From positions 1 to 54,215 of the forward strand of contig CAIKMS010000025.1 in assembly GCA_903828595.1 (NCBI GenBank): 54,215 bases of DNA, in the 5' to 3' direction. Below the pieces are notes generated by a model. It ran no database searches. It was given only the letters and a program-made list of their open reading frames with translations, and was not told the DNA's origin. The DNA comes from an uncultured Pseudomonadota bacterium. Lineage in GTDB: Bacteria > Pseudomonadota > Gammaproteobacteria > Steroidobacterales > Steroidobacteraceae. The position numbers and the translations under genes are program-made. Below are positions 4,894-54,123 of the stretch, one piece after another. The first letter of the stretch is position 1. Every line of letters starts with the position of its first letter.

Positions 4894-5424
4894 TCAAAAC
4901 CGACGAGTTCGGTAGGCCTTGCGCCAATTATTGTAGACACCATAGACACCCAAACTCAGGAATAGCCCGAGCGTCCAGACCGGCATCGCTAGACCTAAGA
5001 ATTGCCAATCGATCTTCTGGCATTCAGCACCACCACGGAAAACCCGAAGTAGCACTTCACTGGGTGGCAGCATCTGAAACATAAATTCCAAACTGGCACC
5101 GCAGGCGCCAACTGATCCTGCCGGTTGTGCTTGAATCCACACGTGTCGACCCGCTATGAGGCAGCCACATAAAGACAGAAGCCCAAGCGCAAACGCGTAT
5201 CCACGACTCCCACCCCTTCGTGGATCATGCGCACAGGCTACAAAGAAAACCACGCCCAACGAAATCATCACTACACGCTGGAATATGCACAGATGGCAGG
5301 GCTCCAAACCCTGAACTTCCTGGACGTATAGCGCATACGCCATGGCCAACACGCACGCTGTGAGACCAAGCCCGTTTCCTAACCGGCGACTCGGCTCAAG
5401 ACCATTATTTGGCACGAAAGTCAT
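4894..5424 (-). CDS. dsbB: Disulfide bond formation protein DsbB
   Basis: This 176-residue inner-membrane quinone reductase reoxidises DsbA. It has four predicted membrane segments. The first periplasmic loop carries the CxxC pair C43/C46 (EPCHLCIFQR) and the second loop carries C108 and C135 (GACGAS and AECQK), the two redox pairs expected of DsbB. The length is the family norm. The ATG at 5424 directly abuts the phoU stop (TAAATG), so it is probably translated from the same transcript. A DsbA-like protein is encoded at 42682-43767, though it may have another partner. Confidence 0.95.
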   Translation of the reverse strand: MTFVPNNGLEPSRRLGNGLGLTACVLAMAYALYVQEVQGLEPCHLCIFQRVVMISLGVVFFVACAHDPRRGGSRGYAFALGLLSLCGCLIAGRHVWIQAQPAGSVGACGASLEFMFQMLPPSEVLLRVFRGGAECQKIDWQFLGLAMPVWTLGLFLSLGVYGVYNNWRKAYRTRRF

Positions 5425-7843: not shown

Positions 7844-7898
7844 GTTTAATTCCCTATCATTATTTAAGCCACTGGCTCTTAAAACGGTGCTGACAAGT

Positions 7899-9536
7899 TC
7901 AGCTAATGAATAACAGGCGCACCGCAAGACTTCCGGACGCCACAAGCGCCATTAATCGCACATTCTGCGCAGAAACACTCGGGTCGGCCAAAATAACCTC
8001 CAACCCGTACGACAATACGACCAGTTTAGCCACAAGCATGGGCACGAATCCGGGTAGCAGGTCCAGATCCGGCAAGTTTGGCACTACGAGCGTCACGAAC
8101 AAAATCAGCAAATCTAGTCCGGTAATTCCAAATTTCTTAGCCGTCGTGGCGCGCAGCGTCAAGACCGAGGATAAGGCTACCAAGACGACTAAAATCCAAT
8201 CTAAGCGAGGCGCCCAACTCACGGCATTTATCACGCTGACGTCAGAAAAAACAAAGGCGGCAACAATCGCATACAGACAGCCTTTATCGAGCATATCTAT
8301 TGCCGAGCCGCGCCTAACGGTTGCTTGGAAAATCATGACGACGACGCTCGCAACGACGGCAAAACGCACATCTGTCGCAACCACTGGCTTTTCAGATAAC
8401 AGCAAAAGACCAAAACCAACGAAAGCAGAGACCAGCAACGAGAAAAAGATGCTCCGTGCTTGGTCACTCACCAACCAACTGCCGATGCTGCCTGATCGAC
8501 GCGGTAATGATTCACCCGAACGACCCAACTTCCAACCACGCCGCTCTGAAAAACCTAAGCAAAATAGACAAAGGAAGGCAAACGTGACGTAAGTCGCAAT
8601 GATGATGGAGTCAAATTGGAAACGTTCAAGGTACGCCACTAAAAACAAAACAATTTGTAGGGCATAAATAATCATTACAGCCTGGTGATGTGCCAGACCC
8701 AGCCCGAGTAGACGATGGTGCAGATGCATTTTGTCTGGCTTGAATGGGGAAGTGCCGGCAATGAGTCTGCGAATCATCACCTGCAAAGTATCCAGAATGG
8801 GTACCCCCAGCAACAATACCGGCAGAGAAGCGCTAAGGGGACTAACCGACTTCTGGGTCGCAAGTAGACCAATAGCTCCGATAGCGAATCCTAGTAGTTG
8901 GCTACCGGCGTCCCCCATAAAGACTATAGCCGGGAAAGTATTGAAACGCAGAAAACCCAAAACGGCTCCAGCAAGTCCAACGCAAAGTGCTAGAGCAAGA
9001 AATTGATTTGCCGAATAGCACAGCCACGAAAGCCCGCATAAACATAAAAACGCCGTTCCGCCAGCTAAACCGTCTAAGCCATCTGAGAGATTAACTGCGT
9101 TAGTCACCCCTACGAGATAAAATACCGCCAGTGCGATCCCGACCACGCGTGGAATCTCAATAGGCTCCGGCAATGTCAAACTGTGGATTTCTAGCGATCC
9201 ACCGATCACCAGAAAAAAACAGGCAGCAAACTGGACTGAAAACTTAATCTTAAAATCAAGATTGAAGCGATCATCGAGTACACCAAAGACAAAAATAATC
9301 CCGGAGGAGGCCAAAAAAAGCACTTCCTCGGAATCAAACGAACCCCGTGAAAACAGTGTGGCCGCCAGCGCACCGGCCGCAATCGCGATTCCGCCGACAC
9401 GAGGGATACGCACAGCATGGATTTTGCGATGATCCGGCTCATCCACAAGTCCAAGGGGCGCTGCAATCTTTAGCAGCAACGGCATGAGCGCCATGGTGAA
9501 CACCATGCTTATCACGAATGGCAGAACGACGCTCAT
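7899..9536 (-). CDS. WecA/MraY-type undecaprenyl-phosphate sugar-1-phosphate transferase with extended C-terminus
   Basis: A polytopic membrane enzyme expected to start glycan assembly by moving a sugar-1-phosphate onto undecaprenyl phosphate. The first ~340 residues match the family: DEPDHRKIHAVRIPRVGG near the start, NLSDGLDGLAGG, FMGDAGSQLLGF and MHLHHRLLGLG, which carry the Asp and His residues of the active site. The last ~200 residues are an extra block of about six hydrophobic segments that WecA lacks. ATG at 9536 (545 residues) begins MSVVLPFVISMVF; the 21 residues upstream in frame are Cys/Arg-rich and unlikely. The ribosome binding site is poor. It ends 55 bases before the exosortase start and may be co-transcribed with it. 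Confidence 0.88.
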   Translation of the reverse strand: MSVVLPFVISMVFTMALMPLLLKIAAPLGLVDEPDHRKIHAVRIPRVGGIAIAAGALAATLFSRGSFDSEEVLFLASSGIIFVFGVLDDRFNLDFKIKFSVQFAACFFLVIGGSLEIHSLTLPEPIEIPRVVGIALAVFYLVGVTNAVNLSDGLDGLAGGTAFLCLCGLSWLCYSANQFLALALCVGLAGAVLGFLRFNTFPAIVFMGDAGSQLLGFAIGAIGLLATQKSVSPLSASLPVLLLGVPILDTLQVMIRRLIAGTSPFKPDKMHLHHRLLGLGLAHHQAVMIIYALQIVLFLVAYLERFQFDSIIIATYVTFAFLCLFCLGFSERRGWKLGRSGESLPRRSGSIGSWLVSDQARSIFFSLLVSAFVGFGLLLLSEKPVVATDVRFAVVASVVVMIFQATVRRGSAIDMLDKGCLYAIVAAFVFSDVSVINAVSWAPRLDWILVVLVALSSVLTLRATTAKKFGITGLDLLILFVTLVVPNLPDLDLLPGFVPMLVAKLVVLSYGLEVILADPSVSAQNVRLMALVASGSLAVRLLFIS

Positions 9537-40904: not shown

Positions 40905-42548
40905 TTGAGCGCAAAGAACCTACGAGCAGCTGTCGCTGCCATGCTGTTTTCGATCGCACCCGGCGCCGCTCATGCGGCCGGCGAGCAGCAAAACCTCGAG
41001 GAACTCCGCCTCACTGTTATTAATCTGCTCCAAACTCTAGTCGACCAGGGCGTCATGCCCCGAGAAAAAGCCGCTTTGCTGGTCAAGCAGGCGCAGGAAA
41101 AGGCGGCAGCGGACGCCGCAGCGGGCGCTAAGCGCGATGAGGGAGCAGTGCGCGTCCCCTACGTGCCACAGACCGTACGGGATGAGATTTCCAAGCAGGT
41201 AGCCGCCGAGGTTGCTCCGGGCGTCGTGAAGGATGTGGTCACTCAGGCAAAGGCGGAAGGCTGGGGCGTTCCAGGAGCCCTACCCGACTGGCTAAGCCAA
41301 GTCCGCATGACCGGCGATTTGCGCGTGCGCATCCAGGGAGATATCTACAGCAAGGACAATACGCCCAACTCCATTTTGGATTACAACTCCATCAACGCCA
41401 ACGGTGGTGTTACACGAGCCAGTGCCGCCGATGCGGCGTTTTTGAACACCACGGCAAACAACGAGCGTCTGCGCCTGCGTGCACGTTTAGGTGCCGATGC
41501 CAATCTTTCCTCGCACTGGCAAGCGGGCGTACGGCTGAGCACCGGACCGGCTAATGACCCGGCGTCAGAGACACAAAACGAGGGCACTACCGCTGCCCGA
41601 TACAACGTGGGCCTGGATCTGGGCTACATTCGCTTTGTCAACAACGATGCAGCGGGTTTCCAGAACCTAACGGCTTCAGGGGGCCGCATTCTCAACCCGT
41701 GGTTCAGCCCTACCGAACTGGTCTACGCCCGAGACCTGACCTTTGAAGGTTTGGCCGGCACCGGCCGCTATGCCTTTGGCAGCGCAGGCAGCGACCCAGA
41801 GGCTCGCCACCAGCTGTTTGCCACCGCTGGCGCGTTCCCCGTTCAGTACGTCGCGATCGACCGTAGCCAAGATAAGTGGATGGTGGGTGGGCAGTTAGGC
41901 GCGAAGCTGCAAATGACCGATGCTGACAGCTTCAAATTGGCGGCCGCCTACTACGATTTCATAAACGTGGCCGGCGTTGCCAACAACCCCTCGTATTTCA
42001 CCACCTACAACGCCACCGCCCCGCAGTTCGTGCGCAATGGCAACTCGATGTTCTCTATTGCCACTGTGGCAGCTACAGACTCCAGCGTTCTACTCTACGG
42101 CCTGGCATCGAATTTCAAGGTGGCAGACTTAGCAGCCAACTACGTGCACTCCTTCGGTCGCTATGCCTTGAGCATCAACGCTGAAGCCGTAGAAAATTTG
42201 GGTTTTGATCAGAAGCAAATCCTGGCCCGTACCGGGCAACTGATTGCCAAGCGCAACAAGGGTTACGTGATGGACGTGGCGTTTGGTGATCCGACGCCTG
42301 AAACTCTCGGTCAATGGCGCGCCACGGTGGGCTACAGGTACGTTCAGCGTGACGCGGTTCTGGATGCCTGGACGGATCCCGATCTGCATTTGGGTGGCAC
42401 CAATGCCGTGGGTTACTACGTGATCGGTGACTTTGGCCTGGGTGGTAAGACGTGGACTCGACTGCGTTACCTGTCCGGCAACGAAATTGATGGCCCACCG
42501 CGCTTTGGTGTTGACGTTATTCAGTGGGACCTGCTCACTCGGTTCTAA
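40905..42548 (+). CDS. Putative outer-membrane porin with N-terminal coiled coil
   Basis: A 547-residue exported protein. TTG 40905 is the start, backed by GAGGAG eight bases upstream. The signal peptide ends near residue 25 (GAAHAAG). A helical segment (about 28-115) resembles the trimerising coiled coil of 'putative porin' families, and the barrel begins at VRMTGDLRVRIQGD. Strands alternate to the end, and the last residue is Phe (WDLLTRF), the barrel assembly signal. The mature protein has no cysteine. It is divergent from the EPS export operon. Substrate unknown; a general diffusion or sugar channel is likely. Confidence 0.85.
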   Translation: MSAKNLRAAVAAMLFSIAPGAAHAAGEQQNLEELRLTVINLLQTLVDQGVMPREKAALLVKQAQEKAAADAAAGAKRDEGAVRVPYVPQTVRDEISKQVAAEVAPGVVKDVVTQAKAEGWGVPGALPDWLSQVRMTGDLRVRIQGDIYSKDNTPNSILDYNSINANGGVTRASAADAAFLNTTANNERLRLRARLGADANLSSHWQAGVRLSTGPANDPASETQNEGTTAARYNVGLDLGYIRFVNNDAAGFQNLTASGGRILNPWFSPTELVYARDLTFEGLAGTGRYAFGSAGSDPEARHQLFATAGAFPVQYVAIDRSQDKWMVGGQLGAKLQMTDADSFKLAAAYYDFINVAGVANNPSYFTTYNATAPQFVRNGNSMFSIATVAATDSSVLLYGLASNFKVADLAANYVHSFGRYALSINAEAVENLGFDQKQILARTGQLIAKRNKGYVMDVAFGDPTPETLGQWRATVGYRYVQRDAVLDAWTDPDLHLGGTNAVGYYVIGDFGLGGKTWTRLRYLSGNEIDGPPRFGVDVIQWDLLTRF

Positions 42549-42562
42549 AGAAACGATCGAGC

Positions 42563-42590
42563 CTGCGAAGCGGCAAAAGCCGCTTCGCAG
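42563..42590 (+). terminator. Strong hairpin after the porin gene
   Basis: CTGCGAAGCGGC and GCCGCTTCGCAG form a perfect 12-base stem around an AAAA loop, starting 15 bases after the porin stop. Only a weak CTGATTT follows. It probably ends or attenuates porin transcription before the DsbA-like gene. Confidence 0.65.
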
Positions 42591-42681
42591 CTGATTTAGC
42601 CACACCGAAAGTGACTCCTTCCCATTGGCGTAGCTGAGGCTACTGCCTCACAAGTCGAGCCTAGAATTGCGAGGTACCGCT

Positions 42682-43767
42682 GTGACAACGTCTTCATCCG
42701 CATGTCTGCGGACCACTATCATCAGCTTGCTGACGCTGACCCTCGCTATACCCGTCGCCCGTGCGGACGTAGACCTCAACCCCAACGCGCCGCTGGCGCA
42801 GATTGGCAACGAGCAATTGACTACCCGGGATGCCAGTGAAGCGGCGCGCAGCAAGCAATTGCGACTGCAAGCCGAACACGACCGTCAAATCCGTGAATAC
42901 GACGTCGCTGCACGCTTAGCGCGTGATGAGGCCTGGAGCGCTGAGGCAGACCGTCTGATCAATGAGCGGGTCTTGGCTTTGGAAGCAAAGGCGCGCCGCT
43001 CAACTCCTGAAAAGCTCCTGGAACAGATCAAAGTTCCACCCGTCACCGCCCAAGAGGCGCGCACGATTTACGATGAACATGCCCGCGAAATTAAACAGCC
43101 CTACGAGTCGGTCGAGCAGGCCATTTTTGAAGAACTGGCGCGTGAGCATAAGCTACAGGCTAAGCAGACTTACCTAAAGGGCTTGCGAAACCAATACGGC
43201 GCGCGAAGCCTGGTAGAACCCACCCGCTTTACGGTGGATATCAATGGGCCAACCCTGGGACCTAAGGATGCGCCAGTCACCTTGGTCTTGTTCGCCGACT
43301 TTCAATGTCCGTATTGCGCTAAATTGATTCCGCAACTCAATCAGGCGTTGCAGGCCCATCCTAACGATCTCAAGCTGGTTTATCGGCACATGCCTTTGGG
43401 GTCGATTCATCCTCAGGCCATGGGCGCAGCGCTAGCCGCCGTTTGTGCCGATCAGCAGGGTAAGTTCTGGCCTGCCTACGCCGCGTTCTATACGGAGCCT
43501 TCGCAGGCGTCGCTTGCGCCGGCAGCCTTGCGTACCACGGTACTGGGCTTAGGTGTGGATGCTGAAGCCTACGATGCGTGCCTCAAAGCCCCGCAAACGG
43601 CCGACATCATCAAAACCGATTCGGATCTGGCCGACAACCTGGGGCTCACCGGAACCCCCGCCCTGTTCGTTAACGGCCGCCTGCTTCGCGGCAGTCAGCC
43701 TACTGACAAACTGTTAGCCATTATTGATGAAGAGCTGCAGCAGGCGCGTTCTACCAAAGCACGCTAA
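42682..43767 (+). CDS. Periplasmic thioredoxin-fold (DsbA-like) protein with SurA-like N-terminal helices
   Basis: A 361-residue exported protein. GTG 42682 is chosen because GAGG lies seven bases upstream. The signal peptide ends PVARA. Residues ~30-170 are helical and resemble the SurA/PpiC chaperone arms (VTAQEARTIYDEHAREI, then the YESVEQAIFEEL helix). From about 185 it is a thioredoxin_4/DsbA fold: FADFQCPYCAKL with C209/C212, and the cis-proline loop LTGTPALFVNG. It probably forms or isomerises disulfides or acts as a holdase in the periplasm. It follows the porin on the same strand, but that porin has no cysteines, so a chaperone role would fit better there. Confidence 0.82.
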   Translation: MTTSSSACLRTTIISLLTLTLAIPVARADVDLNPNAPLAQIGNEQLTTRDASEAARSKQLRLQAEHDRQIREYDVAARLARDEAWSAEADRLINERVLALEAKARRSTPEKLLEQIKVPPVTAQEARTIYDEHAREIKQPYESVEQAIFEELAREHKLQAKQTYLKGLRNQYGARSLVEPTRFTVDINGPTLGPKDAPVTLVLFADFQCPYCAKLIPQLNQALQAHPNDLKLVYRHMPLGSIHPQAMGAALAAVCADQQGKFWPAYAAFYTEPSQASLAPAALRTTVLGLGVDAEAYDACLKAPQTADIIKTDSDLADNLGLTGTPALFVNGRLLRGSQPTDKLLAIIDEELQQARSTKAR

Positions 43768-43840: not shown

Positions 43841-44494
43841 TTAACGAGTTAGGCTGGGCGATACCGTGAGCAAATCCACCTGAGCCTTAGTCTCGTCGAC
43901 AAGATTGTCGACCCGTGTGCGCATAATGCGCGTGAACGGCTCGTCAATGGTGGTCTTACCAAATGAACTCATGTGCGAATAGCGATCCAGGACGTCGATC
44001 GTAATATCGTGCAGCTTGGCATTGCGCGCCGTGCACTCGGCAACCTGACTGGCGGCTTGAGCCGTTTTAGCTTGCAACTCCGCGCGTGTTTTTTCTGATT
44101 GATCCAAGTTGGTCGCCGTTTCTCGGTAGCGCGCAATCAACTCTTCCATACCCTTACGTTGCTGCGCGGCGGTTTGCTCGGCAGCCAGTAATGCTGCCGA
44201 ATTGGCTTTATTGCTGGAACCTTCCGCCGAGGAGCTTTTGGCTCGCAGCGCATCGCGTTCTTTCTTTAGTGCATCACGCTCTTTGCTCGCCGCATCTAAA
44301 TCGGCTTTAAGCTTGGCATTTTCCGTCTGCAACGCGGTCCGCTCGGAGGCCAGCTGTTGATACTGTTGCATCATTTGTGATGAGCCACCGGCGCTGCCAC
44401 CACTACGGGTTGCCTGTGCGAAGGCGTTACTCATCAACCCCATGGCGAGTACGGAAAAACCGGCTAACACACAACGAGAAATGCAACGACTCAT
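43841..44494 (-). CDS. Periplasmic coiled-coil protein of the TonB/ExbBD cluster
   Basis: A 217-residue exported protein of unknown family. ATG 44494 is preceded by GAGGA seven bases upstream. The signal peptide ends SNAFAQ. Residues ~30-155 form a long coiled coil with regular heptads (ENAKLKADLDAASKERDALK and following). A compact C-terminal region carries DVLDRYSHMSSFGKTTIDEP and ends LTVSPSLTR. Only one cysteine remains in the mature protein. The gene follows the TonB-like gene by ten bases and is last in the leftward cluster, so it may be the periplasmic partner or spacer of that energy-coupling machine. Confidence 0.75.
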   Translation of the reverse strand: MSRCISRCVLAGFSVLAMGLMSNAFAQATRSGGSAGGSSQMMQQYQQLASERTALQTENAKLKADLDAASKERDALKKERDALRAKSSSAEGSSNKANSAALLAAEQTAAQQRKGMEELIARYRETATNLDQSEKTRAELQAKTAQAASQVAECTARNAKLHDITIDVLDRYSHMSSFGKTTIDEPFTRIMRTRVDNLVDETKAQVDLLTVSPSLTR

Positions 44495-44504
44495 GGGTAT
44501 TTCC

Positions 44505-45149
44505 TCAAAGCTTCTGCGCAACACGCAAGGTAACAGGCTGTGGCATTTCGATCGGCAATGGGTCGATATGCTTGGATAGAAAGTCTGAGGCGATTGCGCT
44601 GTCTAAAGCCGGGTCACCGGTAGTGCCCACCATCGTGGCCTCTAAAATCTTGCCATCGGCGCTGACCCGAATTCGCGCGTAGCCAGCAAACTTTTTACCT
44701 TTCAGCCGCGGGTCTGTGGACAGGATGTCATGCAACTGCGCGCCCAGACGCTGCTGGGCAGCGCCAAACGGCGACGTACCGTTGCCACCAATCATGTCCC
44801 GACCGCCTAAACGCGAGCCCAGACCAAAGGAGTCTCCGCCCGCGCTGCCGGCGGCATCCAATGCCAGGTTCTCCGCCGGGGCTGGTTGATCGTTGGGAGT
44901 GGGCTCCGGCGGCTGCTCAAAATGCTCTTGCTTCTCCGGTGGCGGAGGCGGCGGTGGCGGTTTATCGTCCGGTGGTGGTGGCGGTGGCGGCTTAATGACC
45001 GTAATCACCTGAACCGTGCGCGCAGCCTTATTGTCCTTGGTCATTAACAGCTGAATGACAAAGCGTGCCGCAATGGCCACGCACAGTAGCAGGACAATAA
45101 CAAAGGCGATCCTGGGTAACCGGCCCTTTGCCTTATTCGGTTCAGCCAT
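44505..45149 (-). CDS. TonB-like energy transducer
   Basis: A 214-residue inner-membrane protein. A single N-terminal membrane anchor (RIAFVIVLLLCVAIAARFVI) is followed by a proline-rich rod with runs of seven and eight prolines, then a Gly-rich linker (GLGSRLGGRDMIGGNG) and a C-terminal TonB domain (AGYARIRVSADGKILEATMV, then PLPIEMPQPVTLRV). In the family it carries the energy from the ExbB/ExbD proton channel across the periplasm to an outer-membrane partner. No TonB-dependent receptor is encoded in the window. It starts 12 bases downstream of exbD. Confidence 0.88.
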   Translation of the reverse strand: MAEPNKAKGRLPRIAFVIVLLLCVAIAARFVIQLLMTKDNKAARTVQVITVIKPPPPPPPDDKPPPPPPPPEKQEHFEQPPEPTPNDQPAPAENLALDAAGSAGGDSFGLGSRLGGRDMIGGNGTSPFGAAQQRLGAQLHDILSTDPRLKGKKFAGYARIRVSADGKILEATMVGTTGDPALDSAIASDFLSKHIDPLPIEMPQPVTLRVAQKL

Positions 45150-45160
45150 TGGAACTCAGC

Positions 45161-45574
45161 TCACTTCACGAGTCGCTGGGTAACTAGACCGAGCTGTGTA
45201 ATATCAAGGCGCCCAACCAAGTCCAGAACATCCACCACTTTCTGGTACTGAATGGTTGAATCGGCCTTAATAATCACCGGCAACTGTGGATTCGCCGCTT
45301 TGTATTGCCGCAGCAGATTTTCCAGTTCCGGCAACGTTACCGGAAAGGTATCTAAGAAGATCGTGCCGTCGGCGGTTACCGTAATGGCTTTGGTCTGCGG
45401 CTTGGCGATCGACGGTGTGTCACTGGCTTTGGGCAAGTTCACCTTGATACCCTGCACAGACGCCGTTGTCATGATGATAAAAATCACCATCAACACATAC
45501 GCAAGATCCAACATCGGCGTGATGTTAATGTCGTCGTATACGTCCTTTTCACCGTCACCGATTGGACCCGACAT
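45161..45574 (-). CDS. ExbD/TolR-family proton channel subunit
   Basis: A 137-residue protein with one membrane helix and a periplasmic domain. DINITPMLDLAYVLMVIFII contains the essential membrane Asp (D23) used for proton flow. The periplasmic part (VNLPKASDTP, ITVTADGTIFLDT, VIIKADSTIQYQKV) matches the ExbD/TolR dimer fold. It partners the ExbB-type domain encoded upstream (31 bases away) and the TonB-like protein downstream. Confidence 0.93.
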   Translation of the reverse strand: MSGPIGDGEKDVYDDINITPMLDLAYVLMVIFIIMTTASVQGIKVNLPKASDTPSIAKPQTKAITVTADGTIFLDTFPVTLPELENLLRQYKAANPQLPVIIKADSTIQYQKVVDVLDLVGRLDITQLGLVTQRLVK

Positions 45575-45604
45575 GGCGTTCTCCGCGCTTTTCGGCGTTA
45601 AATT

Positions 45605-47386
45605 CTAGAGGTACTGTTCTGCAATTCGGGCAACAAACTCGTCAACGAATACTCGCGTATCCGCTGAGATCGCCTTGATGCGGGTGTTCAACCAGTTGTA
45701 GCCGAACAAGCACGGAATGGCTACCGCAAGACCGGCTACCGTCGCGGCCAAAGCAGCAGACACGCCCGGCGCGATCGCATTGACGTTCACGTCGCCGCTC
45801 GCGGCAATCGCCGCGAAGGTGATCATCACGCCGATAACGGTGCCCAATAGCCCTAAGAAGGGTCCGCCGGAGATGGCGATGGTCAACATCACCATGGCCG
45901 ATGACAAACGCTGATTCTCTCGAACTTGAGTGGCGTCCATGGTGGCACGAATGGCTTCAATGGCTTGTGGGGTCAGCGCACTGACCTCACCTGGAGTGTG
46001 GTGAGCGCGCTTGGCAATTTCCACCGAGCCTACATGAAACACATGATAAAGCGTCGACGTGCCGTACTGGTCATCGTGCGTTGCATTCTTACGTGCTTCG
46101 ATGGTCCTCTCCAAGGCGGCACCATCACCGGCCGAGGCGGCAAATTCTTTAAGAAAGGCCCGGTTGCCTCGCTCAACGCCGCTCAAGAAGAAGGCTTTGA
46201 GCACCATGATAATGATGGAGATCACCAACATCGCAATACAGATGATGATGACGACCCAGCTATCGACGGTCAGGTTCTTAATGATGGTTCCGAAGTAAGA
46301 CGCTTGTCCCGCCTCCTTCTGACCATCGGCACCGTAGACCACCAGCGGAGCTTCCGTACCCTGACTCTTAGCGGCGGCTTTGATCCAGTCGGCGCTACGG
46401 GCGACCTTAGCTGCCTGGACTTCATCAATTTCACCAACGAAACCGTTGCTGCCGCGCGCCGAAGCGCCCACGCTCAATGTCCCGCCGATCTCGGCCAGCT
46501 GCGCAGGCGCACTACCGGCCGACACGCCATCCACGTACAGCGTGAGGTTTCCGGCTCCGGCGGTTACCGCCAGAAAATGCCATTGCCCTGCCGCCATTTC
46601 AGCGCCGGACTGGGTAACGGTCACCGGCGCACCGCCGGCGGTGAGACTGGCAAATGCATGCGTAGCGTCAACGCCCAAAGCCAGTTCCTTAGCGCCGTCT
46701 GCTAAGGCCACCACGTAGGCTTTAGCCTGTGGCTGATCAAACTTCACCCAAGCCGAGGCGGTAAAGCCCTGATTCGGCAACAGGCGCAGACTCGCACTGG
46801 CAGCAACGGTCACGCTTTGCGTACCCGCAAACTTCATACCACCGGCGATCAACGAAGCCGGAGTAGCTTCGGCCGTGGAGGCTGTCGCGTGGTTTTTGTA
46901 TGCCGTGGAGTCCTGCGGCAGACCTGATGCCTCACCAAAATGCAGCACCAGCGCCTGAGATACGTCATAGGTACCCGGCTGATCAGCACCTTCAGGGGCA
47001 GACTTATTGCCATAGTAGGCGTAGATCTTGTCCGATTTAGCGCCACCGGTCAGATGGGTAGCATGCACCCATAAATAGGCCATCTGGTTGGTTTGGTCGT
47101 ACCGCTCGAAATGGAACTTCAGAGGGGTTTTATCATCGCCATCCATGACACGAAAATCCGAACCGTCGGGTTTAGTGTCGTTGAAGTAATTGAAGTTAGC
47201 CAGCGACAGGCGAATCAAAACGGGGACATCCTGAGCAGTCCCCGCGATGTCAGCGCCAGCGGGCGTCAGATCAAAGGTGATCTCCTTGCGAAACTGCCAA
47301 TCGGGATTCCACCAGGAACCTCCTGCAAGAGCTAGGGACGGAAGCACCGTCGCGCACAAGGCCAGCCAAAACAGACGCAATTTCAT
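45605..47386 (-). CDS. DUF2341-LamG-ExbB fusion: proton channel with carbohydrate-binding-like ectodomain
   Basis: A 593-residue inner-membrane protein. ATG 47386 lies eight bases after GGGGAG and is preferred to the adjacent GTG. Signal peptide 1-22 (LPSLALAGG). Residues ~25-130 are a DUF2341 domain (WWNPDWQFRKEITFD, DFRVMDGDD, YLWVHATHL). Residues ~145-340 are a LamG/concanavalin-like sheet (LVLHFGEASG, FTASAWVKFD, LTLYVDGVSAG, GEIDEVQ). A membrane helix lies near 378-400, then the MotA/TolQ/ExbB core (GGPFLGLLGTVIGVMITF; PGVSAALAATVAGLAVAIPC). The core pairs with ExbD. The ectodomain would lie in the periplasm and could sense or bind glycan. Similar fusions exist in databases as I recall, but their role is not known to me. 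Confidence 0.9.
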   Translation of the reverse strand: MKLRLFWLALCATVLPSLALAGGSWWNPDWQFRKEITFDLTPAGADIAGTAQDVPVLIRLSLANFNYFNDTKPDGSDFRVMDGDDKTPLKFHFERYDQTNQMAYLWVHATHLTGGAKSDKIYAYYGNKSAPEGADQPGTYDVSQALVLHFGEASGLPQDSTAYKNHATASTAEATPASLIAGGMKFAGTQSVTVAASASLRLLPNQGFTASAWVKFDQPQAKAYVVALADGAKELALGVDATHAFASLTAGGAPVTVTQSGAEMAAGQWHFLAVTAGAGNLTLYVDGVSAGSAPAQLAEIGGTLSVGASARGSNGFVGEIDEVQAAKVARSADWIKAAAKSQGTEAPLVVYGADGQKEAGQASYFGTIIKNLTVDSWVVIIICIAMLVISIIIMVLKAFFLSGVERGNRAFLKEFAASAGDGAALERTIEARKNATHDDQYGTSTLYHVFHVGSVEIAKRAHHTPGEVSALTPQAIEAIRATMDATQVRENQRLSSAMVMLTIAISGGPFLGLLGTVIGVMITFAAIAASGDVNVNAIAPGVSAALAATVAGLAVAIPCLFGYNWLNTRIKAISADTRVFVDEFVARIAEQYL

Positions 47387-47504
47387 CACGGTCGCTCCCC
47401 AAAACTATCCGTAAACCGTATCAGCCGCGAAGTATGAACATCACGGGTGTTGTTTTTATGACAAGTTAGCCAATTGCTATCGATTGTTGTCTTAAGACCC
47501 GGGC

Positions 47505-47534
47505 GTGATGGTGGTTGGCTTCAACCACCATCAC
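47505..47534 (-). terminator. Perfect 13-base hairpin after the repeat-protein gene
   Basis: GTGATGGTGGTTG and CAACCACCATCAC form a perfect 13-base stem around GCTT, 21 bases past the stop of the gene at 47556. There is no clear U-tract on the minus strand, so it may be a terminator, an attenuator or an mRNA-stabilising end before the ExbB fusion gene. Confidence 0.6.
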
Positions 47535-47555
47535 ATCATCAAGCACGCGCGACGA

Positions 47556-49667
47556 TTAGGCCCGCGCTCGACGCGCCGCTAAACGTGCAGCCAATCCGGT
47601 AACGACCAACAGCAGATCCACCAGACTCATCGCGCCGCCGCCGCCACTGCTGGTGTTGCCGGATGAGGAGTTGCCAGTCACCGTCACCGTTGCCGTGGCG
47701 GCCGAACTGACACCGGTACCGGTGCAGGTCAAGGTGTAGACCACCGAACCGGCGGTGGTAAAGGGTCCTTCGACATCGCTACCCGATACGGTCTGCGCGC
47801 CGATGAACTTGCTCGAGCTTGGGACTGGGCCTGTTGCTGAGCCCACGCAGGAGCTGGCACCGGTGGCACTCCACGTCAGCGTGCTGGTCGCACCGGCATT
47901 AACCGCCGCGGGGCTCGCCGTCAGTGTGACTACTGGCGCCGGTGCACTGACCGCCAAGCTATAAAGACCGGCTACCTGCCCGGCGGCCGGCGTGCCGTTG
48001 ATCGTCGCGATATAGTTACCCGCCGGAAGCGTTGCAGGCTGCGCCGCACCGCCGTAAATGGCGACCGGAAAACCCGTGGATTGAGTCGGTGCGTCCTGAT
48101 AGATGAACCCGCCAAAACCCTGATTAGCGAAGAACCCAGGCCAGCCCAAATCAGAAAGAGCAATCGTGTAAATGCCCGCGCTATTCACCGAGAATGGAAC
48201 GGACACCAAGTTCGCTCCGATGGTTTCAATGCGCGAGAACAACGGTACGGCATTGCCAGTCCCGATGACGGCCGCCGAATAAACGCCAGCGCTCTGCGCA
48301 CCCGGTGTGGCGTTAACGGCAAGCACACCCGTGCCAGCAGCCACGGCGGGTATTGAACCGATCAGCGGGCCGGTGCTTACCGTACCCGAACCCAGAGAGG
48401 CACCACCCTGATAAAAGTTATACCCCAAGTTGCCGCCGGGAAAACTCTTCGGGAACTGCAGATCGGTCAGCACCACGTTAACTGAACCGGCTGTCGCAAC
48501 CGTTACGGGGTAAAGGTGCAAGTTGCTGGTTGGATCCACGGCCACACCCACAGCCGGGCAAATCGCCGGATCGCACAGGGGCGAACCGTTCGCCGTCAAT
48601 GCCACCTGATACGCACCCGCACTGCCTGGCGTAGGTGTTACGACCTGCCAAAGCTGCAGCGATCCGGCGGGCGCGCTAAACGTAGCGTTTTGACCTGCAC
48701 CGACCATGCCCAATAACGCCGCACCTTGGGTCACTGCCGCATTCAATGAACTCAACGCTGTGGGCTCAGCCAGGTCCGTGGCCGATAAGCTCAATGTCTG
48801 CGTGGCGTTGTTAGCAATTGCGCTGGCCGGGGCCTGGGTCACCAAACCTACTGGAACCGACGTATCAAGCACTGCGCTACCGCCGGCGGTGGGCGCAACT
48901 TTTAGGCCAAACAAACCGGCAGGCAAGGCGCTGTTAGCCTGCGCATATACATAAACCTCGTAGTTACCGGCCGGCAGGGCTGTCGGCAGCGCCGCCATGC
49001 CTACCGAAACCTTGGACACAAACGCACTGGTATCGGCGTTGAGTATCAAGCCACTCAGATTGGTGAGTGCGCTTGGAAACTGCTGATCCAACAGGCTGAT
49101 CGAGTAATTTCCAGCCTGGGTGATTTTTAAAGCCGTGCTTTGAAAATAGACTGACTGCGGCAGCGTCGAGCCTGGCAGGACAAAGGAGTGACTGTGAATG
49201 GTGGCGCCCAAGCTCGATGAAGTCACCTCCACGGTGACGGCATTACCCGCGGTTGCCGCCGGGTCAGGCACACCCACCACATTCACTTGATAGGTGGTTC
49301 CCGCGGTGACAGCAAAGCTTGCGCTAGTTCCAGAACCATTCAACTTAGTACCCGGCACCAGTGCTCCGTTGCTGGTCACAACCAAGTTCAGGGAAGTCAG
49401 CGCCGTCAGACCTGATGATCCGCCACTGTTGGCCGCAGCCTTAGCAAGATCCGTCAAGGTCACGGTCGCCGATTCGGTCGCGGTGGGCTGGAAGGTGAAG
49501 GTGTAGCCAGGAGCACCGCTGGAAATCACGGCGGCAATCGGTGTGAAGGGCACCGACAATCCCGACCCGGTCACCGCAGCCTGCGAGGCCACAAGGACAA
49601 AGCCGGCTACCGCAACTGCAAGCGACCAGCGACGGATCACTCGATTTTTTACCCAACCAGTTAACAT
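47556..49667 (-). CDS. Large secreted repeat protein with GlyGly-CTERM-like tail
   Basis: A 703-residue exported protein; ATG 49667 follows GAGG by eight bases. The signal peptide ends near SQAAVTG. Five related units of roughly 110 residues can be traced. Each has a strand of the form Y-x-I-x-L-x-D-x-x-[FW]-P (for example SISLLDQQFPSALTNL, VVLTDLQFPKSFPGG, TIALSDLGWPGFF) and ends with PAGxY...AGLYxLxV. Then comes one Ig-like domain (SPAAVNAGATSTLTWSATGA, one disulfide pair). The tail is NTSSGGGGAMSLVDLLL, then a hydrophobic helix and RRARA, as in GlyGly-CTERM proteins processed by rhombosortase. The same repeat occurs in the two small proteins at 52982-54123. Function unknown; a surface or biofilm protein is likely. 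Confidence 0.72.
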   Translation of the reverse strand: MLTGWVKNRVIRRWSLAVAVAGFVLVASQAAVTGSGLSVPFTPIAAVISSGAPGYTFTFQPTATESATVTLTDLAKAAANSGGSSGLTALTSLNLVVTSNGALVPGTKLNGSGTSASFAVTAGTTYQVNVVGVPDPAATAGNAVTVEVTSSSLGATIHSHSFVLPGSTLPQSVYFQSTALKITQAGNYSISLLDQQFPSALTNLSGLILNADTSAFVSKVSVGMAALPTALPAGNYEVYVYAQANSALPAGLFGLKVAPTAGGSAVLDTSVPVGLVTQAPASAIANNATQTLSLSATDLAEPTALSSLNAAVTQGAALLGMVGAGQNATFSAPAGSLQLWQVVTPTPGSAGAYQVALTANGSPLCDPAICPAVGVAVDPTSNLHLYPVTVATAGSVNVVLTDLQFPKSFPGGNLGYNFYQGGASLGSGTVSTGPLIGSIPAVAAGTGVLAVNATPGAQSAGVYSAAVIGTGNAVPLFSRIETIGANLVSVPFSVNSAGIYTIALSDLGWPGFFANQGFGGFIYQDAPTQSTGFPVAIYGGAAQPATLPAGNYIATINGTPAAGQVAGLYSLAVSAPAPVVTLTASPAAVNAGATSTLTWSATGASSCVGSATGPVPSSSKFIGAQTVSGSDVEGPFTTAGSVVYTLTCTGTGVSSAATATVTVTGNSSSGNTSSGGGGAMSLVDLLLVVTGLAARLAARRARA

Positions 49668-49815
49668 ATCACATACCTCGTACAAGGATACTTCGTGCCT
49701 TGACTCGGTGCTCAGCCGCTTATGACAACTGATCGGCGTACCCGTTCCAAGACTTCGACACGGCCTGCCCACACAAACCGCACGTAGCCTTAAACACTAG
49801 CGCAATCCGATGAAC

Positions 49816-49836
49816 AAGCCGTGACAACCACGGCTT
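49816..49836 (-). terminator. Hairpin after the TPR lipoprotein gene
   Basis: AAGCCGTG and CACGGCTT form a perfect 8-base stem with a 5-base loop, nine bases beyond the stop at 49845 in the direction of transcription. The following bases on the minus strand are GTTCATCGG, so termination would be weak. Confidence 0.5.
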
Positions 49837-49844
49837 ATTGCCGC

Positions 49845-52232
49845 TTATTTAAGACTCGCCAACAAAGTCTTCGCGGCAGCCGCGCCCTCGAAGCCATCGC
49901 CCGATTTAAGAGCCGCTTCTAGGTTGGCGCGCCCGCCTGCCACATCGCCCGTCTTCACCTGGGCCATAGCCAAGTGATAACGCACCACGGCGGCGTTAGG
50001 CACCTTATCCACGATGGGCTGCAGAACCGAAATGGCTTTGGCATATTCGCCACGGGCAATCAACACCCAACCGTAGGTATCCACAAACCGCAGGTTATTC
50101 GCTTTAGCAAAAGGTTCAGACAATGCTTTGGCGCGATCAAGGCTGACCTTGTCGGCCCGATCTACCAGCATCATGGCAAGGTTGTTAGCTGCCGCTTCAT
50201 TGCGCGGATTGGTTTTTAACAGGACCTCGTAAGTGTTGATGGACTCAACGGTGCGCCCCATTTGCTGGTAAGCAATTGCCAGTTCCATGCCAGCCTGATC
50301 GCTTTGCGTAACCTTAGTAGTTGCTAGCTTTAGCGCCGCGATCGCACCGTCCTTATCACCGGTTGCCATCTTAGTCAGAGCCAAGCCACGATAACCCGCC
50401 AAACGTCGCGGTGCTAATTCAATCGCTTTATTAAAGCCCTGCTCAGCCTGCGGCAATTGCCGCGTGCCCAAATTAACTTCTGCCAGCAACTGCCATGGCT
50501 GTACGTAATCCGGATGCTCAACCGTGAGCTTTTCCAGCTTCGCTTTGAGTTCAGGAATCTTCTTCTCGGCCAGAGCCACGCGCGCGTAGGCATTGATGAC
50601 TTCATCAGCTGCTGGGTTTTTGTCCACGCCCGTGCTGTACTGACTCAACGCCAGCGCGGGTTTTTGTTGGGTTTCGGCAATCAATCCGCCCAAGAAGTAG
50701 CCTAGGGGGAGATCAGCAAATTTCTGCCGCACCACCGTAGCTGTCGCATCAGCAGCCGCTAAGTCCTTTTGTATCAACTGCACACGAACCAAGGCTTCAT
50801 AAACCGCCGGCTCGTTTGGCAGGCGTTTAATCAAAGCCTCGGCCAGCGTGCGTGCCTGATCGGGTTTGCCGGTTTGAACCAACAGATCCACTAAATCCAT
50901 CGCCAAACTGGTGTCGTTCGGATTGGCATCCACCGCACGCCGTAAAACCTCTTCGGCTTGCTGTCCCTCGCCATTCGCGACGTGAGCCTTGGCCAGTGAG
51001 CGCAATGCGGTGACTAGATTAGGTTGATCACGCAACACGGCGCGCAAATCGGCCACGGCGCTTTTAGCATCCCCGCGCTGCAGCTCTAAGTCGCCCCGCA
51101 TGTTCAGCGCCTGTACATCGCGCGGGCTGTCACGCAGAACCTCAGCCACCAAGGCTTCACCAGCGGCCATATCACCGCTGCGCAATTTAACCATCGCTAA
51201 GGCGTTTTTTGCCGCAAGGCCGGTGGCCGAAGTGCCCTCAGCCTTGATAATCTCGTTGAGCGTGGCTTCGGCCTTCGGGGCCTGATTGCTCTCCGCGTAA
51301 CGACGCGCTAGCGCAAAACGTAAATCCATGAGTTGTGGATTTTCCGCCACTTGAGCCAGCAATTCGGTTTCCGCCGCCTCAGGGCTTTTGGTCACGGCGA
51401 TTAACTGCACCAGCGCCAGTTTCAGTTGCACTTGTTTGGGGTTCGCCAAAATCGCTGCGCGTAAAGTGCTCTCGGCTTCCGGGGTTCGCTTGTTTGCGGC
51501 ATAAAATGCGGCTAGACGCAGCGAATACTCGGAGTGATCCGGCTGCAGGTGCACAAGCTCCTTGAGCGTCGACTCGGCCTCTGCTGGGTGATTGGTTGTC
51601 AGGTATGACTGTACCAACGCCATGCGCAAATCAACTGACGCAGGCAGCGCGGCGATGCCAGCTTTGAGAACTCGCCAGGCGTCTTCTTCTCTATGCTGAG
51701 CGGCATAAATGCCGGCGACCACCGCGATGGTGTCTTCGGAAGTCGGCGCTAAGCGATAAGCATGTTCAGCGTCTTCCAACGCCCCGGCCGAATCATTCAT
51801 GTGCCCGCGTGCTGCAGCACGAATGCTTAAAAACTTTGGCTCTTCGGGGTGCGCGTCTAGGCCGGGCTTGAGGATATCCAACGCCTGAGTGTAGCCGCCG
51901 AGCATAAGGTACAAACGGGCTAAGCGATAACGCGCATCCACGTAGTCAGCTTTAACATCAATGGCACCTTGGTAAAAACTTAAGGCATCACGTTGATTGT
52001 TAAGCTTTTCAGCAACCAGTCCGTTCTCATAGCGTACCTCGCCGTCATTGGGCATGACTTGCAGCGCGTTACGAAACTCAACCCGAGCTTTGTCGAGGTT
52101 ATTCTGCTCTAAAAACGCGCGACCCTTGGCCATGTAGCGGGCCTTGCGACTCTCCGGCGTACCACAGCCACCCAACAGGGATAGAACCAAGCCCAGAAGT
52201 AAGAGAGCGTGCAAACGATGAAGACGGCGCAT
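49845..52232 (-). CDS. PrsT-like TPR-repeat lipoprotein of the exosortase system
   Basis: A 795-residue lipoprotein. Signal peptide with lipobox LLGGC (ALLLLGLVLSLLGGCG), so Cys is the lipidated first residue. The mature part is almost entirely TPR repeats (about 20), such as KARYMAKGRAFLEQNNLDKA at the start and NPRNEAAANNLAMMLVDRAD near the end. This length and opening match the 'PEP-CTERM system TPR-repeat lipoprotein PrsT'. It should sit in the outer-membrane inner leaflet or periplasm as a scaffold. ATG 52232 begins MRRLHRLHALLLLG; a GTG at 52244 adds four residues. It lies between the VPLPP proteins and the repeat protein on the same strand. Confidence 0.88.
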   Translation of the reverse strand: MRRLHRLHALLLLGLVLSLLGGCGTPESRKARYMAKGRAFLEQNNLDKARVEFRNALQVMPNDGEVRYENGLVAEKLNNQRDALSFYQGAIDVKADYVDARYRLARLYLMLGGYTQALDILKPGLDAHPEEPKFLSIRAAARGHMNDSAGALEDAEHAYRLAPTSEDTIAVVAGIYAAQHREEDAWRVLKAGIAALPASVDLRMALVQSYLTTNHPAEAESTLKELVHLQPDHSEYSLRLAAFYAANKRTPEAESTLRAAILANPKQVQLKLALVQLIAVTKSPEAAETELLAQVAENPQLMDLRFALARRYAESNQAPKAEATLNEIIKAEGTSATGLAAKNALAMVKLRSGDMAAGEALVAEVLRDSPRDVQALNMRGDLELQRGDAKSAVADLRAVLRDQPNLVTALRSLAKAHVANGEGQQAEEVLRRAVDANPNDTSLAMDLVDLLVQTGKPDQARTLAEALIKRLPNEPAVYEALVRVQLIQKDLAAADATATVVRQKFADLPLGYFLGGLIAETQQKPALALSQYSTGVDKNPAADEVINAYARVALAEKKIPELKAKLEKLTVEHPDYVQPWQLLAEVNLGTRQLPQAEQGFNKAIELAPRRLAGYRGLALTKMATGDKDGAIAALKLATTKVTQSDQAGMELAIAYQQMGRTVESINTYEVLLKTNPRNEAAANNLAMMLVDRADKVSLDRAKALSEPFAKANNLRFVDTYGWVLIARGEYAKAISVLQPIVDKVPNAAVVRYHLAMAQVKTGDVAGGRANLEAALKSGDGFEGAAAAKTLLASLK

Positions 52233-52480
52233 AGCGAATTCCACGAGGAGTAAAACGACAGGTAAGCGTAGGTTTGCACTGTGACAGATGTGTGAATTCA
52301 GTCAAAAGGGATTTACGCAGCGACTGCACATAATCCGTTTTCCTCACCACCAGACGATACGAGGCAAGCCGACAGCAGGACTTAATCGCCGACTTATTTA
52401 TGCAACCAGCGTGCGCCAAGGGGACGGCGGGCGGTCGACCTAGGGCTCACCACGCAGGACCGTGGTAGCCGGTTTGGCGT

Positions 52481-52522
52481 AAAAAAATCGGGTGGGCGAC
52501 CTCTTACCGGCTCGACCCACCC
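52481..52522 (-). terminator. Rho-independent terminator, distal unit
   Basis: On the minus strand a GGGTGGG arm (complement of 52516-52522) pairs with CCCACCC (complement of 52490-52496), followed at once by GA and seven U residues (52487-52481). It would end transcripts coming from the two small surface-protein genes. Confidence 0.75.
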
Positions 52523-52561
52523 ATGGGTTAAGTGACTGGATCCCTAGCGGACCTCAACACC

Positions 52562-52571
52562 CAACACAACA
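52562..52571 (+). repeat. CAACACAACA repeat, copy 1
   Basis: Identical to 52871-52880, and the reverse complement of 54137-54146 in the leader of the VPVPP gene. It lies in the distal terminator unit, ten bases before CAAGGGA. Confidence 0.5.
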
Positions 52572-52784
52572 CACAACGCTCAAGGGAAACCGATCTGTCA
52601 CGCGGGACCTAGTGACTCAAAGTCCACCAGGACTCACGCAGCAAACTTAAAACTCATCATCCGCTCAGGGACGGCCTAACCTTAGGCGCCCAGACCCATC
52701 CCAACGGATATCTCATCAACCTCTTCGACGGGGCTCGCCGGTCTTCGCGCTTTAACGCCCAGAACCCAACAAACCCTCCCAAAT

Positions 52785-52825
52785 AAAAAAATGGGGTGGG
52801 CCATTTTTTTCAAAACAACCCACCC
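52785..52825 (-). terminator. Rho-independent terminator, proximal unit, with two exclusive folds
   Basis: Fold A: AAAAAAATGG (52785-52794) and CCATTTTTTT (52801-52810) form a perfect 10-base stem with loop GGTGGG; it ends in a T-run on either strand, so it could stop transcription both ways. Fold B: the loop sequence (52793-52800, GGGGTGGG) pairs instead with CCCACCC at 52819-52825. A and B together would make an H-type pseudoknot. Confidence 0.7.
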
Positions 52826-52870
52826 GCCTGAACGGCGGGGCTGATCAACTCAGCACCCTCACGCCAGACA

Positions 52871-52880
52871 CAACACAACA
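52871..52880 (+). repeat. CAACACAACA repeat, copy 2
   Basis: Second copy of the CA-rich decamer, in the proximal unit close to the stop of the VPLPP gene. A TTCAACACA (52890-52898) and GGGATTC (52904-52910) follow. Confidence 0.5.
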
Positions 52881-52981
52881 CACTCGACTTTCAACACACT
52901 CAAGGGATTCTTTGTCTTACTCGCATGCACAGGCCCTTAAGTACCCCGTGCAGCGAGATTTGATTTGTTTAATCAACAAAC

Positions 52982-53530
52982 TTAAATACAGAACTCCAGC
53001 GCCAGGAGGCAGCACCCCAACAGAACAATGGGAATCGCAATACCTGAGCCTAAAAACCTCTCAGTTGCCGTGGTTGCCGACGATTTCACACGACGGCGAT
53101 AGCCAGATAGCCCCAGCAAACCCACGCTGGCTGCCAAGACACCACCACCCGGCGGCAAAGGCACCGAGGGTGATGAACCGACAAATCCTGCCGTGTCATT
53201 CATCAACATCGCTGATCCAGGCATTTCCGACAGGGGCATGCTGGCCGGCACAGCGGCCACCTGATACATGGTCACGTGCGGGCCTGCCTTCACATCCCAC
53301 GTCCACTTGAACTCATTGGGTCCGTGCGAAAGTGGGTTGGTATTAAGCGCATTAGTCCCCTCGCCGCTGTCTGCATCCAAAGAACCAATACGATTCCATT
53401 CCGACAGGTCTAGCTGCGATAGTTGGCTGGGAAACAGTTGGCAGTAGTCCAGGGCGACCAAGCAACAGCTCAGCAACGCCCCTGGCACAACCACGCCATT
53501 TCTAAATTTCAGACGTTTCAATAATTTCAT
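52982..53530 (-). CDS. Small VPLPP-CTERM protein with an extra hydrophobic tail
   Basis: A 182-residue protein whose domain part matches the neighbour at 53527-54123: QLFPSQLSQLDLSEW and DVKAGPHVTMYQVAAVP align with QLFPNALTRLDVSLW and DVTAGAYTTMFQAAATP. The N-terminal half of the domain is missing, so the hydrophobic start (residues 11-30) joins QLFP directly. VPLPP at 123-127, a helix and RRR at 145-147 form a VPLPA-type sorting signal. Unusually, 35 residues follow, ending in a second hydrophobic stretch (161-182). Its CCLLALEFC mirrors CCLVALDYC at 22-30. The ATG overlaps the upstream stop (ATGA), so translation is coupled. It may be a product of a partial duplication. Confidence 0.7.
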   Translation of the reverse strand: MKLLKRLKFRNGVVVPGALLSCCLVALDYCQLFPSQLSQLDLSEWNRIGSLDADSGEGTNALNTNPLSHGPNEFKWTWDVKAGPHVTMYQVAAVPASMPLSEMPGSAMLMNDTAGFVGSSPSVPLPPGGGVLAASVGLLGLSGYRRRVKSSATTATERFLGSGIAIPIVLLGCCLLALEFCI

Positions 53531-54123
53531 ACGCTCACCGCATCACCCTTCTTGGCCTGACGACGGAAACCGACCAGGCCGAGCATCACGACGCTGGCTG
53601 CCAAGGCACCACCTAAAGGAGGTACCGGCACGGCCGGCGCGCTCGCCGTAAAGGTCACCTTTTCGTTGAACAGTCCCAGAGCGAAAGTCGGCGAACCTGG
53701 GAAGGTGTTAGTCGGTGTCGCAGCCGCCTGGAACATCGTGGTGTAGGCGCCGGCTGTCACGTCGATATTGAAGGTCACTTCCTGAGGAGTGGTTGCCTGC
53801 GGTGCACCCAATCCGCTGGCTGGGCCACTAACCAATGTTGCACCGGCACCGGCACCGCTCCAAAGCGATACGTCCAGCCGGGTCAGCGCATTCGGGAAGA
53901 GCTGATCGCTCACCGTGATCGTCAAAATGCCCGCGGTCGGCGCAAGGAAATCCGACGTGAAAACTTGCGTGTTGGAACTGGTTACGGTTTGGCTGGCCGA
54001 GTACAGGGTAATCGGGCCCAAAGATGAAGCGCCAGCCACTGCTGGCAGTAATGCGCCCAAGACTAGACTGGCAGTAAGTCCTTTGATTAATGAGCCTCGA
54101 ACGGCTTTTGTAATTGACTTCAT
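53527..54123 (-). CDS. Small VPVPP-CTERM (VPLPA-type) secreted protein
   Basis: A 198-residue exported protein with signal peptide ending AVAGAS (about residue 33). Residues ~35-160 contain one copy of the repeat domain seen five times in the protein at 47556-49667 (ILTITVSDQLFPNALTRL; VTAGAYTTMFQAAATP). The tail is VPVPP (165-169), a hydrophobic helix, FRRQAKK and eight polar residues, a close variant of the VPLPA-CTERM signal that the XrtD-type exosortase at 6233-7843 should cut. ATG 54123 has AGGGGA five bases upstream. It would be an abundant surface or matrix protein; its function is unknown. Confidence 0.8.
   Translation of the reverse strand: MKSITKAVRGSLIKGLTASLVLGALLPAVAGASSLGPITLYSASQTVTSSNTQVFTSDFLAPTAGILTITVSDQLFPNALTRLDVSLWSGAGAGATLVSGPASGLGAPQATTPQEVTFNIDVTAGAYTTMFQAAATPTNTFPGSPTFALGLFNEKVTFTASAPAVPVPPLGGALAASVVMLGLVGFRRQAKKGDAVSV

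Follow-up and report, generated by a model that had tools for sequence, protein, structure and literature searches.

The motor genes and their conserved neighbours

The window analysed here (54,215 nucleotides, the entire contig CAIKMS010000025.1, C25 in our numbering, of assembly GCA_903828595.1 from an uncultured Steroidobacteraceae bacterium, G000 in our genome set) carries its own ExbB, ExbD and TonB-like genes, with ExbB fused to a DUF2341-LamG ectodomain. Across genomes, this fused ExbB is paired almost gene for gene with a giant two-partner secretion exoprotein (TpsA) that contains the DUF3739 domain. The motor genes belong to a run of eight minus-strand open reading frames (ORFs) described in an earlier note on this DNA, and all eight were confirmed, with their order and spacing (Table 1). 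ExbB and ExbD are separated by 30 bp, ExbD and the TonB-like gene by 11 bp, and the latter overlaps the gene of a coiled-coil protein (the coil) by 20 bp. On the other side of ExbB, 166 bp separate it from a repeat protein gene (REP5), 72 bp separate REP5 from a PrsT-like gene and 737 bp separate that gene from CT2, which overlaps CT1 by 4 bp (CT1 and CT2 encode CTERM-type proteins). Genes for Porin_5 and a DsbA-like protein (40905–43767) lie just beyond this run on the opposite strand; the earlier note had passed over both.

The fusion that the note had read in ExbB is real: Pfam places DUF2341 (residues 75–162), LamG (189–337) and MotA_ExbB (475–576; PF01618 at 5.6e-26) in one protein of 594 residues. 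Its structure model (mean predicted local distance difference test, pLDDT, 68; 84–93 in the LamG part) contains a LamG-type sandwich, with LG domains of neurexin and agrin among the nearest solved folds, and a TolQ-like C-terminal part. ExbD carries a membrane aspartate within the motif NITPMLD, which we take to be a functional residue. The TonB-like gene has no match in Pfam. In its model, a membrane helix and a proline-rich stretch are accompanied by a C-terminal domain of a-b-b-a-b topology, for which TolA and TonB domains are the closest known structures, the matches being weak (E 0.008–0.05 by Foldseek, with none at E 0.001; E 0.004–0.01 by a profile search of the PDB). A dedicated motor, as claimed before, is supported by Pfam for two subunits and by the model for the third. 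In NCBIfam, ExbB scores best against TolQ (122.5 bits, cut-off 221) and ExbD against TolR (87.8 bits, cut-off 127.3); since both scores are under the curated cut-offs, membership of Tol-Pal was rejected. A likeness to gliding motors was also dropped (GltJ, 17 bits, which is chance level). Three residues of the coil (C164, N168 and P196) are invariant. The earlier note had pointed to a missing TonB-dependent receptor, and indeed an NCBIfam search of 40 window ORFs yielded none (28858–30084, 35973–36791 and small or antisense ORFs lie outside that set).

The genomic context of the fused ExbB was collected by a search whose query was an alignment of 22 such proteins. Of 551 confirmed places in named genomes, the best 80 were taken as loci (L numbers). 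Close kin are therefore over-represented among these 80 loci, and seven of them (L021, L022, L027, L034, L036, L039 and L041) are contigs that are also found in seven of the 59 relatives used below. Synteny was counted by six-frame searches with profiles made from members of these loci, which makes the counts a census as opposed to an independent test; 30 sequences went into the TpsA profile, with L055, L066, L068 and L097 left out. The usual order is ExbB, ExbD, TonB, Porin_5 and coil. Among loci with room for the gene in question, ExbD comes next in 76 out of 76, TonB in 71 out of 71, Porin_5 is in place in 60 out of 68 and the coil follows the motor genes in 62 out of 66. Five of the eight loci that miss Porin_5 at this place carry it elsewhere, and the profile search found none on the remaining three (L033, L035 and L053). 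On 49 of the 80 loci there is the end of a giant gene of the filamentous-haemagglutinin type (TpsA), on 19 the gene of its partner TpsB and on 63 either of them; where at least 9 kb upstream is available, TpsA or TpsB sequence is found on 49 out of 52 loci. Pfam scans showed DUF3739 in two of the giant proteins, and ShlB and POTRA_2 in two of the smaller ones. The loci of Povalibacter uvarum (L043) and Methylovulum miyakonense (L095) are among those with a giant gene. TpsA, TpsB, Porin_5 and the coil are the recurrent neighbours, and no TonB-dependent receptor was found among the protein clusters examined at these loci.

Four loci of Methylococcales (L074, L082, L083 and L097) have TpsB downstream of the coil and not upstream of ExbB. 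Weak matches to the TonB model at about 20 kb in Burkholderia loci looked like VreA, but the one tested, on L086, had no Pfam match, and these candidates for PUMA3 signalling genes were dropped.

The module is also found on plasmids: 11 plasmid records cover at least 80% of ExbB, of which three were inspected. For example, plasmid pTB101 of Aquabacterium olei (L125) carries the whole module with TpsBA and two ExbD genes, adjoining a gene annotated as PEP-CTERM. In another example, a Klebsiella plasmid (L124) has the motor part and the porin, in the order of the Pseudomonas aeruginosa operon described below and up to a LysR gene; its ExbB covers 96% of the window ExbB at 37% identity. A Methylomagnum plasmid (L123) has the motor part near alkaline phosphatases.

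A segment in the N-terminal part of Porin_5 (VRVPYVPQ in the window, VRVPYVPE in the family consensus) belongs to the more strongly conserved parts of the protein, and for this reason it is our first candidate for the site that TonB contacts. Relatives of the DsbA-like protein are found on eight of the 80 loci; it is likely to be a periplasmic folding helper and an occasional member of the module.

Co-occurrence of the fused ExbB and the DUF3739 exoprotein

DUF3739 near the C-terminus marks a subset of TpsA proteins of about 3,400 residues. We searched for DUF3739 and the fusion in two genome samples that had not been chosen for carrying them: 59 relatives, where a full fusion is a match above 450 bits, and 274 genomes spread over the class, where a fusion is a match above 200 bits to the model's N-terminal part (at most four candidates were scored per genome; the matches in G127, G068 and G176 consist of two pieces within one open frame). 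Fisher values given below are uncorrected for kinship. Nine of the relatives have the full fusion, and DUF3739 is found in exactly those nine and in none of the other 50. In the class sample, 17 genomes have the fusion and 18 have DUF3739 above its cut-off: 16 of the 17 fusion genomes versus two of the 257 others (P = 8e-23), with G158 counted as fusion-negative. The two genes are also close to each other. In 12 of the 16 genomes the DUF3739 gene is on the same strand and directly upstream of ExbB at less than 3 kb, and in 15 out of 16 it is within 25 kb; the sole genome in which it is farther away is that of the window. The steadiest partner of the motor is therefore the DUF3739 exoprotein, and not the CTERM proteins that the earlier note had put at the centre.

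POTRA_2 served as a control for two-partner secretion in general. It is found above cut-off in 26 of the 59 relatives, and since 18 of these are among the 50 relatives that lack the fusion, the motor tracks the DUF3739 type and not two-partner secretion at large. 11 of the 18 matches are firm (at least 38 bits); the remaining seven score 24–30 bits, and six of them are in frames of 800–900 residues, maybe BamA. Full-length Porin_5 (at least 445 bits) tracks the fusion as well: it is present in eight of the nine fusion genomes among the relatives versus none of the 50 others, and the remaining Porin_5 stretches in relatives reach at most 103 bits, with the N-terminal part mostly missing.

The genome of the window has a TpsB (ShlB and POTRA_2) and a TpsA on contig C16, at about 57–69 kb (locus L117). 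This TpsA has 3383 residues, with a TPS domain (5e-20) and DUF3739 (1.5e-34).

Exosortase, CTERM-type proteins and other window features

The window is an XrtD exosortase and exopolysaccharide (EPS) locus, with glycosyltransferase-like proteins among its products according to NCBIfam; an XrtA-type ATPase, a chain-length protein and an export protein were matched below their own cut-offs. The ORF between the chain-length and export genes (38558–39748) has no NCBIfam match. Genes for PstA, PstC, PhoU and a DsbB-like protein (203–6150) adjoin XrtD, and a second exosortase is found elsewhere in the genome (G000:C30:19840-20541, 137 bits to TIGR02602).

Table 1. Features of the window discussed in the text, with the evidence for each
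Feature	Position	Strand	Evidence
ExbB-type proton channel subunit, N-terminal signal-like helix, DUF2341 and LamG ectodomain predicted periplasmic	45605..47389	-	PF10102, PF13385, PF01618 and model
ExbD	45161..45574	-	PF02472, 1e-28
TonB-like energy transducer	44505..45149	-	Model, Foldseek, PDB profile search; no Pfam match
Coiled-coil protein, predicted secreted to the periplasm, in the place of PA0697	43841..44524	-	Synteny, invariant residues
Full-length Porin_5, candidate outer-membrane partner of TonB	40905..42548	+	PF16930, 1.3e-142
DsbA-like protein, long N-terminal part	42667..43767	+	PF13462, PF01323
REP5, predicted surface protein, about five domain copies	47556..49772	-	Repeat model
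PrsT-like TPR protein, lipobox-like LGGC	49845..52244	-	TIGR02917, 270.2 bits (cut-off 312.2); lipobox by eye
CTERM-type protein 2 (CT2), VPLPP tail	52982..53530	-	41% identity to CT1; tail pattern
CTERM-type protein 1 (CT1), VPVPP tail	53527..54123	-	Repeat-domain match, E 0.0064; tail pattern
Exosortase XrtD with C-terminal EpsI domain	6233..7945	-	TIGR04152, 527 bits (cut-off 400); TIGR02914, 148 bits
EPS chain-length determinant	36795-38546	-	TIGR03007, 254 bits, below cut-off
EPS export protein	39745-40380	-	TIGR03027, 117 bits, below cut-off

The earlier note had linked the motor to exosortase loci, and this link is borne out by the counts. An exosortase (TIGR02602 above cut-off) is found in 78 of the 274 class genomes, namely 15 of the 17 fusion genomes versus 63 of the 257 others (P = 2e-7); in six of the 15 genomes having both, the exosortase is on the contig of the fusion within 60 kb. 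XrtD is found in 12 of the 59 relatives (six of nine fusion genomes versus six of 50 fusion-negative ones), and within the family of the window in six of nine versus none of 27. VPLPA-like tails were observed on 21 of the 80 loci, two of them doubtful, versus a mean of 1.1 and a maximum of four in 20 shuffled controls; 19 loci have genes for EPS export as well as for the chain-length determinant. The outcomes that the earlier note had named as refuting its idea (no co-occurrence across genomes, or fusion homologues always beside TonB-dependent receptors and never near CTERM proteins) were therefore not observed. The link is real but looser than that with DUF3739. Three fusion genomes among the relatives lack XrtD (G001, G003 and G017) and two in the class sample have no exosortase above cut-off (G193 and G161). 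All of the ten Burkholderia and Paraburkholderia loci have TpsB, while their 10 kb flanks show neither the EPS pair nor any VPLPA-like tail. Moreover, eight genomes of the class sample lack the fusion although it occurs in their families; exosortase is kept in six of these eight and DUF3739 in one, which argues that much of the exosortase signal is at the level of lineages; shared lifestyle or genome size may be behind part of it.

The note's descriptions of the neighbouring surface proteins stand in part. CT1 and CT2 do have tail-like ends; these ends read VPVPP and VPLPP instead of VPLPA, and neither protein has an NCBIfam match at E 0.01. The repeat-domain match of CT1 (Table 1) compares with a best value of 0.38 among 2000 shuffles. 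CT2 could be a copy of CT1 in truncated or fused form, judging by its sequence (41% identical over residues 31–149, with odd hydrophobic stretches at both ends). The PrsT-like TPR protein stays under the cut-off of TIGR02917, the model for PrsT of XrtA/PEP-CTERM systems (Table 1). For REP5 (738 residues), read as a five-repeat surface protein, leave-one-out models back four repeats and not the third. Its tail (GGGG, a hydrophobic stretch and RR) resembles what we take to be a GlyGly-CTERM tail. A rhombosortase is found above cut-off in the window genome (TIGR03902, 127.7 bits, G000:C23).

The REP5 domain is found in VPLPA-tail proteins on ten of the 80 loci, nine of them upstream of the EPS export gene, and L102 has an orthologue with several repeats. 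Three such VPLPA-tail proteins were scanned: the one on L030 passes the VPLPA-CTERM cut-off and those on L027 and L058 miss it. We considered REP5 as a stand-in for the giant TpsA upstream of ExbB and rejected this, as the two cluster apart and the domain occurs in VPLPA-tail proteins.

Possible roles of the module

The ExbB, ExbD and TonB genes, full-length Porin_5 and the coil form a conserved module that accompanies the DUF3739 exoprotein, and we propose that this module is probably a dedicated proton motor for the passage of the exoprotein through the outer membrane, its anchoring or its release (we give this reading a probability of about 0.55). From the observed gene order, co-occurrence and domains, we infer that the motor acts on TpsA. 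By analogy with the family, ExbB and ExbD would turn proton flow into movement of TonB, whose C-terminal domain would exert a pull on a protein of the outer membrane. This partner would most likely be Porin_5, contacted at its VRVPYVPE/Q segment, or else TpsB. The coil, with a DsbA-like or PpiC-like helper, may hold the very long chain in a competent state while it is in the periplasm, where the LamG ectodomain of ExbB may sense or hold the chain or a glycan. The exoprotein would then join the matrix predicted from the VPLPA-type proteins and polysaccharide of the XrtD locus. A bolder form of this proposal, which we put forward tentatively and do not favour, is that exoproteins of about 3,400 residues with DUF3739 have a proton-powered ExbB-ExbD-TonB machine of their own that, acting via Porin_5, drives them across the outer membrane or off it, as the first energised type V pathway, which in the family of the window would be wired into an exosortase matrix locus.

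Several observations count against a motor for the exoprotein. The tie between motor and TpsA comes from gene association, and in the window genome itself the TpsBA pair and the module are on different contigs, at least about 60 kb apart (unlinked yet both present). The pairing also has gaps: fusion is present and DUF3739 is not matched in G161 (85% complete), DUF3739 is found without the fusion in G256 (64% complete), and G158 has DUF3739 with a 71-residue piece of the fusion at a contig edge and no full fusion. In each of three genomes (G193, G207 and G176), two fusion loci stand against a single DUF3739 match. Among the fusion genomes of the relatives, a search found no Porin_5 in G001 and no POTRA_2 at cut-off in G002. 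A firm POTRA_2 match in a genome that lacks the motor is seen in at least 11 relatives, and the doubtful BamA-like matches weaken the argument for DUF3739 specificity a little.

The main rivals are a porin-uptake system and a machine for CTERM proteins or polysaccharide. For the former, TonB would open Porin_5 to let in some scarce nutrient, either a sugar or one linked to phosphate, and the company of TpsA would reflect a shared regulon. We find this doubtful. Full-length Porin_5 does follow the fusion, alkaline phosphatases are near the module on the Methylomagnum plasmid, the window has pst and phoU genes, and the corresponding operon of Pseudomonas aeruginosa is controlled by PhoB and phosphate starvation (PMC4971064). 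The near gene-for-gene link with DUF3739, however, would be left to co-regulation, and Porin_5 was not found in G001 or on L033, L035 and L053. Pho boxes in the window are not in excess either (four found versus 3.56 expected), and Pho control through them was dropped. The latter rival is the reading of the earlier note, in which the motor helps to move, assemble or release exosortase-sorted CTERM proteins or EPS. Its observation of a separate motor and of the exosortase link holds, and is strengthened by the XrtD counts in the family, the EPS genes and VPLPA-like tails of many loci and the REP5 domain on ten of them; its choice of central partner does not. We consider it unlikely, as fusions occur without exosortase or without XrtD, the Burkholderia and Paraburkholderia loci have TpsB and neither EPS pair nor tail in their flanks, and fusion-negative sister genomes mostly keep the exosortase while DUF3739 is mostly gone. 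A Tol-Pal-like envelope machine for constriction or outer-membrane tethering, unrelated to secretion, would fit the best matches of ExbB and ExbD (TolQ and TolR) and the TolA-like fold of the TonB C-terminal domain; with scores under the family cut-offs, a patchy presence (17 out of 274 genomes) unlike that of a housekeeping role, and other MotA/TolQ/ExbB proteins in the window genome, it is very improbable.

The closest known system is the operon linked to PdtAB in P. aeruginosa. In the published accounts, its order is pdtB-exbB2-exbD2-tonB4-PA0696 (a putative porin)-PA0697-PA0698 (YbjN)-PA0699 (PpiC), and it is under PhoB and VreI, controlled by phosphate starvation and beside the TpsA gene pdtA (PMC2729926, PMC7035377, PMC4971064); a single promoter drives phdA, pdtB, exbB2D2, tonB4 and PA0696-PA0701 (PMC4971064). 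Compared by this published gene order alone, the order of ExbB, ExbD, TonB, porin and coil and the two-partner system are shared with the module, whereas in the window TpsBA is on another contig, Porin_5 is divergent and beyond the coil, and the setting is that of XrtD and EPS. The module is already known in outline from one species, and is uncharacterised there: the operon (PUMA3/VreI regulon) is still termed so in a 2020 paper (PMC7035377).

Other known systems share parts of it. As in two-partner (type Vb) secretion, the partner of the module is a TpsA with a TPS domain together with a TpsB of ShlB and POTRA_2; the available passages of a review, however, describe type V secretion as running without an energy source at the outer membrane and mention neither a motor nor Porin_5 (PMC5422565). 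ExbB-ExbD-TonB systems with receptors have the same three subunits, but here ExbB carries DUF2341 and LamG, and the neighbours are TpsA, TpsB, Porin_5 and the coil. XrtD/VPLPA-CTERM loci resemble the window in having XrtD, EPS genes and PrsT-like and VPLPA-like proteins, but XrtD is found without the motor in six of the 50 fusion-negative relatives. Oar of Myxococcus xanthus is a precedent for a TonB-linked outer-membrane protein that is needed to secrete a protein (PopC); it is reported as a TonB-dependent transporter instead of a two-partner system (PMC6434023). Among the titles and abstract openings listed by our searches of open-licence PMC articles, none proposes a motor for two-partner secretion, and a search for DUF3739 gave no article; neither the gene-level pairing of DUF3739 with the motor nor its placement in exosortase loci came up in these searches.

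With a near gene-for-gene pairing of the motor and the DUF3739 exoprotein, the view that type V secretion needs no energy source becomes directly testable. If a motor for the exoprotein is the true role of the module, the DUF2341 ectodomains of ExbB-type proteins, whose function is listed as unknown in a 2025 survey (PMC12505986), would gain one, and so would the P. aeruginosa operon that was described as uncharacterized in 2020 (PMC7035377).

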